In this document: piece after piece, positions 26,938 to 29,057 of the stretch
Numbering within the stretch: the first letter of the stretch is position 1
How the letters are laid out: each line of letters opens with the position of its first letter
Source of the DNA: Prochlorococcus marinus str. MIT 0918
Lineage (GTDB): Bacteria > Cyanobacteriota > Cyanobacteriia > PCC-6307 > Cyanobiaceae
Direction of reading: 5' to 3'
Assembly: GCF_027359415.1 (NCBI RefSeq)
Contig: NZ_CP114780.1
Location: 682,001 to 746,000 of the forward strand
DNA: 64,000 nt
Translations under genes and position numbers: made by a program
Notes under the pieces: model-generated
Databases searched by the model: none
Told to the model about the DNA's origin: nothing
What the model saw: only the letters and a program-made list of their open reading frames with translations

Positions 26938-27849
26938 TTGATACCACTCTGTTCGCCACTTGAAGCTCAACTTCCAACTGCTCTTGCTCTAGGCAGTTTT
27001 GATGGCCTTCATGCTGGTCATAAACGCGTTATTAGTGAAATAGCGTCTAGCAAAAATGGCATCCCAACATGTGTAAGCTTTTGGCCTCATCCTAGAGAAG
27101 TCCTTTATGGAGAATCTCGATTAAGACTTGATCTCCCATCTGAGAAGACACTACTTTTAGAACCTTTAGGTATCAAACAACTTGTACTAGTTCCTTTTAA
27201 TCAATCATTAGCATCTTTAAGTGCCAAAGATTTTTTTCATAAAATACTTTTAGAGGAATTACAAGCAAAACATATTTCTGTAGGTGCTAATTTCAGATTT
27301 GGTAAAAATAGAGAAGGTGATCCATCAACTTTATTAGAGCTTGGGAAAGATGCAAATATCAAAATAACTGTTGTTGAAATACTAAAGGATCAGAAAGGAA
27401 GAATGAGTAGTAGCAGAATTAGAGCCGCACTAAAAGCTGGCGATTTAAAAATGACTAAAGAGCTCTTAGGTAGACCATATCGCTTTCAAGGTGAAGTAGT
27501 CAGCGGGAAAGGCCTGGGAAAGCAAATAGGCTGGCCAACAGCTAATCTTCGCGTAGATGGAAGAAAACTACTCCCAGGGCCTGGTGTATATGCAGTATTA
27601 GCCAAAGAATCTTCGATGAAATCTTTTTCCCCAGCTGTTATGAATTTGGGGACACAACCAACAATTGATCCAAATACTCCATCAGCCACTGAGGTTCACT
27701 TATTGAATAAAGAAATAAACCTAAAAGGAAAAGAATTAACAGTTGAACCCGTAAAAAAGCTTAGAATTCAAAAAAAATTCGAATCCATCCAAGCCTTAAG
27801 TAATCAAATTCAATTAGATGCCAAATTAGCTCTTTCAATATTGACTTAA
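26938..27849 (+). CDS. ribF: Bifunctional riboflavin kinase/FMN adenylyltransferase
   Basis: Makes FMN and FAD from riboflavin. The N-terminal nucleotidyltransferase domain has GSFDGLHAGHKRVI near residue 18 and VGANFRFGKNREGD near 118, then SSSRIRAAL. The C-terminal flavokinase domain has GKGLGKQIGWPTANL and LLPGPGVYAV. All motifs are intact in 303 residues. A TTG start is used, and no ATG fits ahead of the first conserved strand. ribD lies about 6 kb away, not in an operon with it. Confidence 0.93.
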   Translation: MIPLCSPLEAQLPTALALGSFDGLHAGHKRVISEIASSKNGIPTCVSFWPHPREVLYGESRLRLDLPSEKTLLLEPLGIKQLVLVPFNQSLASLSAKDFFHKILLEELQAKHISVGANFRFGKNREGDPSTLLELGKDANIKITVVEILKDQKGRMSSSRIRAALKAGDLKMTKELLGRPYRFQGEVVSGKGLGKQIGWPTANLRVDGRKLLPGPGVYAVLAKESSMKSFSPAVMNLGTQPTIDPNTPSATEVHLLNKEINLKGKELTVEPVKKLRIQKKFESIQALSNQIQLDAKLALSILT

Positions 27850-27867
27850 ATATAAAATTGAATATGG

Positions 27868-27975
27868 CTATGGATATGCATTCGTCAAACCCCAAACCAC
27901 AAAGAAACCTATACCTCCTAACAAAACCGCACCCCAAATGAGGACATTAGTATTACCAAAATCAGCTTTTTCCAT
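27868..27975 (-). CDS. 35-aa single-span membrane protein, unknown
   Basis: A short gene in the 170-base gap between ribF and thiE, read on the minus strand. ATG at 27975 gives MEKADFGNTN, then a hydrophobic span VLIWGAVLLGGIGFFVVWG, then LTNAYP and TAG. The shape (charged N-terminus of ten residues, one glycine- and tryptophan-bearing span, short tail) is that of the small accessory subunits of thylakoid complexes such as photosystems, cytochrome b6f or NDH-1. I cannot match it to a named subunit. It shares an upstream region with thiE, which starts 45 bases away in the other direction. Confidence 0.7.
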   Translation of the reverse strand: MEKADFGNTNVLIWGAVLLGGIGFFVVWGLTNAYP

Positions 27976-28019: not shown

Positions 28020-29057
28020 ATGAGTGTCACCCCTAATCCAGATCAACGTGTAGCTCAGCTCATAGATGCCAATCTAGACAGAGCAAGAGAAGGGCTAAGA
28101 GTAATTGAAGATTGGAGTAGATTTGCAATAAAAAATAAAGGACTAGTAATAACGCTTAAAGACTGGAGACATCAGCTAGGGCAACTTCATCATGAAAGCT
28201 ATAAAGAATCACGTTCTATAAATTCTGACAAAGGCTTAGGTCTAGGCCATGATTCTCAATCAAAACGGGTTTCTGCAAAGCAAATTGTTGAAGCAAACTT
28301 TGCAAGAGTTCAAGAAGCACTGAGAGTTCTAGAGGAGTTTTCCCGCATTTATCATCCAGAACTATCATTAACTTCATCAAAAATTAGATATGAACTTTAT
28401 GACTTTGAGAAAGTTTTCTTCAAACTAGAGAAAAAACAAATTTTGCTAGAAAGAATGAATTCATGCAAAATTTGTCTTATCACTCATCCTCATAAAGATC
28501 TAATTAAAATCATTTCGAAAGCTCTTGAAGCTGGCATTACAATGGTGCAATACCGATGTAAAGAAAGTAATGATTTCGACTCAATTTCTCAAGCAAAGGA
28601 ATTAGCATCTTTATGCAAAAAGCATCAATGTCTTTTCATAATCAATGATCGAGTAGATATTGCCCTTGCAACAAATGCAGATGGAGTACATCTTGGTCAG
28701 AAAGATATCCCAATAGATCTTGCTCGCAAATTAATTGGACCTGAAAAATTAATAGGTCTTAGCACTCATTCTCTAGAAGAGGTTTACAACGCAAACAAGC
28801 AAAAATGCGATTACATAGGCTTAGGTCCAGTTTATAAAACACAATTCAAACCTGAGCTATTAGCTATAGGAACTGAACTTCTAAAAGAAGCTGTGAAGAT
28901 AAGTCAAATACCAATATTTGCAATAGGTGGAATAAATGAAGAGAAGTTATCCGAGTTGCAATCAACTGGAATAAACCGAATTGCAGTTATTCATGCAATT
29001 ATTAATTCAAAAGATCCTTTTTCAACAAGTAAAAAACTATTAGAGAACCTAAAATGA
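28020..29057 (+). CDS. thiE: Thiamine-phosphate synthase with N-terminal extra domain
   Basis: Joins the pyrimidine and thiazole halves of thiamine. Residues 1 to about 130 form the helical N-terminal domain found in cyanobacterial ThiE (ThiD2-like), with ANLDRAREGLRVIEDWSRF and a second copy-like EANFARVQEALRVLEEFSR. The C-terminal TIM barrel (about 145-345) has VQYRCKES, INDRVDIALATNADGVHLGQ in short pieces, and GLSTHS and GPVYKTQFKP. The 345-residue length fits this fused form. It overlaps thiS by four bases (ATGA). Confidence 0.93.
   Translation: MSVTPNPDQRVAQLIDANLDRAREGLRVIEDWSRFAIKNKGLVITLKDWRHQLGQLHHESYKESRSINSDKGLGLGHDSQSKRVSAKQIVEANFARVQEALRVLEEFSRIYHPELSLTSSKIRYELYDFEKVFFKLEKKQILLERMNSCKICLITHPHKDLIKIISKALEAGITMVQYRCKESNDFDSISQAKELASLCKKHQCLFIINDRVDIALATNADGVHLGQKDIPIDLARKLIGPEKLIGLSTHSLEEVYNANKQKCDYIGLGPVYKTQFKPELLAIGTELLKEAVKISQIPIFAIGGINEEKLSELQSTGINRIAVIHAIINSKDPFSTSKKLLENLK

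Follow-up and report, generated by a model that had tools for sequence, protein, structure and literature searches.

A putative shortened ndhQ gene at the ribF-thiE locus of Prochlorococcus marinus MIT 0918 and its apparent relatives in cyanophages

The position of the small subunits NdhP and NdhQ in the NDH-1L complex is known from the structures of Thermosynechococcus elongatus. According to the accessible text of PMC6992706 and PMC7021789, the two proteins flank and contact NdhD from opposite sides and also touch NdhF; along with beta-carotene and lipids, they stabilise the part specific to NDH-1L. The deletion of either NdhP or NdhQ is said to disassemble NDH-1L, in work cited in the available part of PMC6992706. 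In Synechocystis, the NdhQ protein (Norf6) has 46 amino acids, as given in the accessible portion of PMC5126843. A survey of NDH-1 subunits includes the strains CCMP1375 and WH8102 (PMC12038448), and its main text, as far as available, makes no statement on NdhQ in either of them. Cyanophages are also described as carriers of genes of this complex: ndhI, ndhD and ndhP are named in the accessible part of a review (PMC10452541), and ndhP in that of PMC3877843. In the literature searched, outside which most subscription papers lie, no report was found of a viral ndhQ or of an ndhQ locus in Prochlorococcus.

The window considered here is a stretch of 64,000 nucleotides from Prochlorococcus marinus str. 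MIT 0918 (NZ_CP114780.1; genome label G000). Its minus strand holds, at positions 27868-27975, an open reading frame (ORF) of 35 codons, translated from ATG to TAG as MEKADFGNTNVLIWGAVLLGGIGFFVVWGLTNAYP*, which is exactly the frame that a preliminary description of this DNA had reported. Two plus-strand genes, whose names were assumed beforehand, serve as synteny anchors: ribF (26938-27849) is the convergent neighbor and thiE (28020-29057) the divergent one. The end of ribF at 27849 and the start of thiE at 28020 leave the described gap of 170 bases, and 44 bases separate the starts of the ORF and thiE. The proposed single-span membrane protein is borne out by prediction, since the best 19-residue Kyte-Doolittle mean is 2.15 and AlphaFold2 returns one helix (residues 3-33, mean pLDDT 89). 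An NdhQ would be expected to have one transmembrane span and fewer than about 50 residues, which the ORF satisfies. The transmembrane helix together with the C-terminal motif (residues 11-33; positions 27877-27945, minus strand) is the part common to canonical NdhQ and the viral copies. One promoter-like site was found, not upstream of the ORF start, and shuffled sequence yields 1.2 such sites on average; no terminator-like site was found.

The arrangement of the three genes is conserved among the relatives. In the family of MIT 0918, 61 loci were fetched (L001-L029, L033-L056 and L206-L213), and in 60/60 of those with both flanks ribF and thiE enclose the ORF and run in the opposite direction. 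These 60 loci represent 54 distinct genomes, six of which are present twice; the remaining locus, L023, is cut, with thiE alone visible. The same order and orientation were observed in 78 of the 80 loci of a separate named collection, which includes Synechococcus WH7803, Synechococcus WH 5701 and Prochlorococcus MIT 0701, the two exceptions (L255 and L289) being truncated near thiE. In a class-wide search, the gene was matched at E <= 3e-14 in all but one (G018) of the 25 family genomes listed outside the genus g17, hence in 24; 16 genomes without a match are absent from that listing. A second weak match in the genome G016 falls inside an unrelated frame of 67 amino acids and was discarded.

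The ORF is a protein-coding gene under purifying selection, because pN/pS is low and the differences are in excess at third codon positions in this frame; its translation is inferred. In a codon test with 11 congeners, pN/pS equals 0.125 in the ORF frame and 0.29-3.55 in the other five frames, and the differences at codon positions 1, 2 and 3 number 183, 58 and 622, so that third positions hold 622 of 863. Over the last 28 codons of 22 family members, pN/pS is 0.175. A match to the ORF at E <= 10 was obtained in 44 of the 60 genomes searched, including its own, and 29 of these (own included) reach E <= 1.8e-5, the other matches being weak. The preliminary description had named a tblastn search of relatives and a comparison of synonymous and non-synonymous changes as suitable checks, and both came out in favor of a gene. 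That the frame is a chance ORF without a product, as its mere 35 codons and a number of promoter-like sites not above the shuffle expectation might suggest, is practically ruled out, being refuted already by the codon test and opposed by conservation and synteny as well.

The identity of the protein depends on profiles, as the single sequence is not informative. In a phmmer search of the PDB with the ORF alone, NdhQ was not found and the best match was PsaG at E 1.3; searched against Pfam and NCBIfam, the ORF alone gave no match at the cut-off, and the 32 rows of profile A1 gave none at E < 0.005. Profile A1 includes two phage rows and one outlying genome, and the residues G20, I22, W28, A33 and Y34 are invariant across all its rows. 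Against the PDB, its first matches are the NdhQ chains 6khi_Q (2.5e-5), 6l7o_Q (1.7e-4) and 6hum_Q (0.012). Profile A3, the host-only version from which the phage rows and the outlying genome were removed and which contains the window ORF, likewise ranks 6khi_Q (0.0064) and 6l7o_Q (0.045) first, though with modest values, followed by PsbX at 0.23. Profile A5, made of 28 viral sequences only, has three matches at E <= 10, all of them NdhQ, the best at 0.017. Homology to solved NdhQ over the span is thus shown by the profiles and not by the single sequence.

Two of the profiles do not contain the window ORF. These are A5 and A2, the latter being built from 16 canonical NdhQ sequences, all from outside the family, and recovering solved NdhQ at E 5e-27. 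When the 1122 stop-to-stop frames in the window are compared, A1, A2, A3 and A5 all rank the ORF first, with values of 6.5e-7 for A2 (next frame 0.29) and 2.5e-12 for A5 (next frame 0.45). In the complete genome, A2 matches the window ORF (E 1.6e-4) and nothing else at E <= 10, so that no better genomic candidate exists; the ORF also stands at the locus where unambiguous NdhQ of the family is found. A2 matches 52 of the 61 family genomes at E <= 2.1e-4; four further genomes at E 0.08-1.3 were judged to be chance, and five had no match. The direct alignment of A3 with A2 by hhalign gives E 6e-12 and a probability of 97.5. Outside the family, ribF adjoins canonical ndhQ in one of 18 short-flanked loci (genome G065, locus L070), and the synteny of ndhQ there therefore rests on a single case.

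The alternative that the peptide is a small subunit of photosystem I or II, similar to PsaG or PsbX, finds its support in the weak phmmer matches to PsaG (E 1.3) and the weak profile matches to PsbX (0.23 with A3, 1.5 with A1). Neither amounts to the significant match to a solved chain that such an identity would call for, and the PsbX match spans 14 positions only, whereas NdhQ ranks first in three profile searches (A1, A3 and A5) and matches through the W and the AY. This alternative is highly improbable, and PsaG, supported by the weak phmmer match alone, was rejected. NdhP would require homology to solved NdhP, and no NdhP chain appears among the PDB matches of the ORF, A1 or A3; a separate ndhP of the same genome is located at G000:C1:579084-579206. 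Matches to an LPXTG anchor (E 0.03-0.09, below cut-off), to YrhK (0.0077) and to phrog_2253 (0.037) were set aside as generic hydrophobic similarity. The comparison with NdhP, NdhQ and Psb subunits thus points to NdhQ, and the earlier proposal of a small subunit of a thylakoid complex gains support from the tblastn search and the codon test; there is no experimental evidence for the peptide or for its place in NDH-1L.

Judged from its sequence, the window ORF belongs to a known subunit family, in a shortened form. All 16 canonical NdhQ rows have an unvaried RGIMKF at the N-terminus, ahead of the span; the window ORF lacks it and therefore does not fulfil the expectation of this motif in an NdhQ. 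Two members of the family at the ribF-thiE locus keep the N-terminus in part (NRGIMRF in G021 and DRGIMQF in G342), and other family genomes have intermediate N-termini at the same locus. RGIMKF is taken as a common and not a defining trait, because the two forms are connected within a single locus by G021 and G342; and since the graded N-termini share the ribF-thiE locus and profile homology, the protein is interpreted as a shortened NdhQ by descent.

The gene is not present everywhere in the family. In the genus g17 (L214-L224), most likely the high-light clade of Prochlorococcus, ribF and thiE are still adjacent, the ORF between them is absent in 11/11 genomes, and the distance from the ribF stop to the presumed thiE ATG is 6-8 nt in all of them. 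The G+C content at these loci is 0.31. A search of this genus with A1 left 10 of 11 genomes without a match at E <= 1, and the value of 0.24 in G198 was taken as chance. The ndhP gene is kept in 11/11 of these genomes, as in 18/18 overall. G018 (L225), a high-G+C member of the family, has no recognisable ndhQ at ribF-thiE or elsewhere, which is possibly an independent loss. ndhQ is dispensable in places, because the ORF is missing at ribF-thiE in 11/11 g17 genomes and G018. Provided that g17 is assigned correctly, the make-up of NDH-1L differs between low-light and high-light Prochlorococcus. Regarding additional copies, a second, diverged NdhQ-like protein was read in four genomes of the genus g5, probably marine Synechococcus (L062:831-965 of G017:C4, L063, L064 and L065); in G017 it has 44 amino acids and ends WGLFNAYPNML. 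The class-wide search gave two or more matches in 7/7 g5 genomes, and no close second copy was found outside g5 in the 61-genome family sample, which holds one g5 genome.

This distribution bears on the possibility that a descendant of ndhQ was re-purposed for another thylakoid complex or assembly step after the loss of its N-terminus. The loss of RGIMKF, the absence of the gene from 11/11 g17 genomes that all retain ndhP, and the second copy read in four g5 genomes would agree with such a change of role. It is opposed by the gradation of N-termini within a single locus, by the lack of any other NdhQ candidate at E <= 10 in G000, and by the viral copies, which are also short and lie near ndhP on 47 of 120 listed stretches; a re-purposed gene is accordingly considered improbable. 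As regards a place in NDH-1L, the window protein shares with canonical NdhQ and the viral copies the residues of the membrane span and of its end (G-x-I ... W-G/A-L-x-x-A-Y). By analogy with the T. elongatus structures, from which both its membership and its place are inferred, the single helix would lie against NdhD1 and NdhF1, opposite NdhP and near a beta-carotene and lipids. There it may help to keep the module specific to NDH-1L (NdhD1/NdhF1/NdhP/NdhQ) attached to the complex, and would thereby support respiratory and cyclic electron flow (ferredoxin to plastoquinone) and proton pumping, although insertion and any effect on activity are inferred.

Relatives of ndhQ apparently constitute a recurrent, unrecognised auxiliary gene of cyanophages, which is the stronger point of the analysis. 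When 50,697 phage records were searched by tblastn with the 35 residues, 19 matches were obtained at E <= 1, every one in a record named as a Synechococcus phage or cyanophage. Viral queries matched 70 (E <= 5), 21 (E <= 5), 27 (E <= 2) and 75 (E <= 2) records, and here too every record bears such a name; there is overlap and redundancy in these sets, with ACG-2014f making up at least 30 of the 75 from one query. One viral query returned 33 mycobacteriophages among 83 records, which were dropped as chance, and the 10 listed of these 33 matches fall under a capsid maturation protease. The viral ORF was followed as far as its stop codon in ACG-2014j, S-SCSM2R, ACG-2014f, DSL-LC03, S-MbCM7 (ACG-2014h), S-CAM9, S-SRM01 (ending HAYG) and Sf-CH3 (WSL for WGL). 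Many ACG-2014f matches have E values of only 0.1-0.9 and were accepted because one of them, read through, ends WGLNNAYP. No CDS matching viral ndhQ is present in the 10 annotated phage regions examined; the annotated features under the matches are neighbors that overlap its ends. At E < 0.005, neither the ORF nor its viral relatives were matched by a model of Pfam, NCBIfam or PHROG, and the subunit thus escapes the usual annotation libraries. No Prochlorococcus phage is named in the tallies of ndhQ matches, compared with 34 of 508 for TalC; the records being redundant, an absence of ndhQ from such phages is weakly supported.

A degenerate DNA pattern for [FLI][IV]xWG.x[NH]AYP was found on at least 120 IMG/VR stretches, and a codon-reversed decoy on none. 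Conservation of the motif on the 120 listed stretches is by construction, because the motif selected them, and the upstream codons alone provide independent evidence. None of the 120 has a stop within the 11 codons before the motif, and the upstream codons give a pN/pS of 0.486 over 354 close pairs, with 1366, 613 and 1686 differences at positions 1, 2 and 3. The stretches are redundant (95 distinct 25-residue stretches) and include isolate genomes. From the nearest ATG, the listed viral ndhQ has a median of 29 residues and a range of 22-41, the 22 of L101 being an artefact of the start rule. Alignment of A5 gives 3.5e-10 against canonical NdhQ and 2.4e-16 against the host form.

The neighborhood of the viral gene was described on the same listed stretches, whose median length is 7.8 kb and many of which are cut. 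Viral genes were named by Pfam for PTOX (AOX), petE, talC, gnd and zwf, and by solved NdhP for ndhP, the viral NdhP matching it at 3.7e-9. By tblastn, ndhP is present on 47 of the 120 stretches, gnd on 43, PTOX on 15, petE on 12, talC on 9 and zwf on 7, and ribF and thiE on none. Any of these six metabolic genes occurs on 68 stretches, a T4-like phage gene of the query set on 46, a phage and/or metabolic query gene on 87 and neither on 33. On the 68 stretches, the nearest metabolic gene is always on the same strand as ndhQ, at a median distance of 81 bases compared with a mean of 1447 for random points placed on these same stretches, and 53 of 68 lie within 300 bases of such a gene (random mean 16, maximum 28). 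The nearest query gene within 120 bases downstream is gnd in 21 cases, talC in 8, an unknown protein of 67 amino acids in 8, PTOX in 6 and ndhP in 5. In six contigs (three seen as ORFs, three extrapolated), PTOX starts 4 bases before the end of the ndhQ stop, and in three of the six petE lies just upstream. Because viral ndhQ is linked to ndhP, the host and viral assignments are both supported.

The 67-residue protein of unknown function (L204:4804-5007; phrog_593, phrog_13921) has similar sequence on 53 of the 120 listed stretches, and several contigs have it next to viral ndhQ or ndhP. An acidic protein of 34-38 amino acids precedes viral ndhQ in many of 40 contigs (L082, L084, L093, L105 and others); its 3′ end overlaps the ndhQ start, it mostly carries ELFEEPSTYEDE, and it matches phrog_2505, of unknown function, at 3.9e-5. 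The viral NdhP at L032:12876-13010 is matched at 1.2e-18 by phrog_2173, also labelled as unknown function, and a phage-record search with viral NdhP gave its own record only at E <= 0.01.

The proximity of viral ndhQ to ndhP and its 4-base overlap with PTOX point to the NDH-1/plastoquinone route. It is inferred that infected cells would produce viral NdhQ, accompanied in many phages by NdhP, PTOX, plastocyanin or pentose-phosphate enzymes, and that it may keep NDH-1L assembled, so that electrons pass through plastoquinone and ATP is produced. In the wider reading, held to be rather likely, marine and freshwater cyanophages carry an unrecognised NdhQ of about 29 residues, often near ndhP, PTOX, petE or pentose-phosphate genes; NdhP and NdhQ would stabilise or take over the host NDH-1L for cyclic or pseudocyclic flow, and the NDH-1L of ndhQ-less high-light Prochlorococcus would lack a subunit that such phages supply. 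The opposite effect is also conceivable, in which the viral copies poison NDH-1L: host NdhQ would be displaced, the large complex would disassemble and reducing power would be left for nucleotide synthesis. The viral forms are short (the median of 29 residues) and diverged, and NADPH from the pentose-phosphate neighbors (gnd on 43 and zwf on 7 of the 120 listed stretches) would make flow through NDH-1 less obviously needed. Carriage with ndhP (47), PTOX (15) and petE (12) nevertheless fits a support of electron flow, and the pN/pS of 0.486 indicates some purifying selection upstream of the motif, which leaves poisoning an unlikely option, if one to be kept in mind. The best explanation, that the window ORF is ndhQ for a shortened NDH-1L subunit, with the support of NDH-1L by phage copies as an inferred extension, is given a probability of about 0.91.

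The closest described proteins are NdhQ of T. elongatus (chain Q of PDB 6KHI, 6L7O and 6HUM), which the profiles match over the span, and NdhQ of Synechocystis. The window ORF has in common with the NdhQ of T. elongatus and Synechocystis a single span and G-x-I ... W-G/A-L-x-x-A-Y near the C-terminus; it differs from canonical NdhQ in the lack of RGIMKF, in ending with AYP, in its length (35 compared with about 45 residues) and in its ribF-thiE locus. Viral NdhP, as in S-SCSM2R and phrog_2173, is the partner single-span subunit of NDH-1L, found on 47 of the 120 listed stretches; it belongs to a different protein family, and ndhP is already named as a cyanophage gene in the accessible text of PMC10452541 and PMC3877843, where ndhQ does not appear. 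The close neighbors petE, PTOX, talC, zwf and gnd would share with viral ndhQ the inferred aim of redirecting the energy metabolism of the host, but they encode enzymes or carriers with Pfam families, whereas viral ndhQ would encode a structural subunit of about 29 residues.
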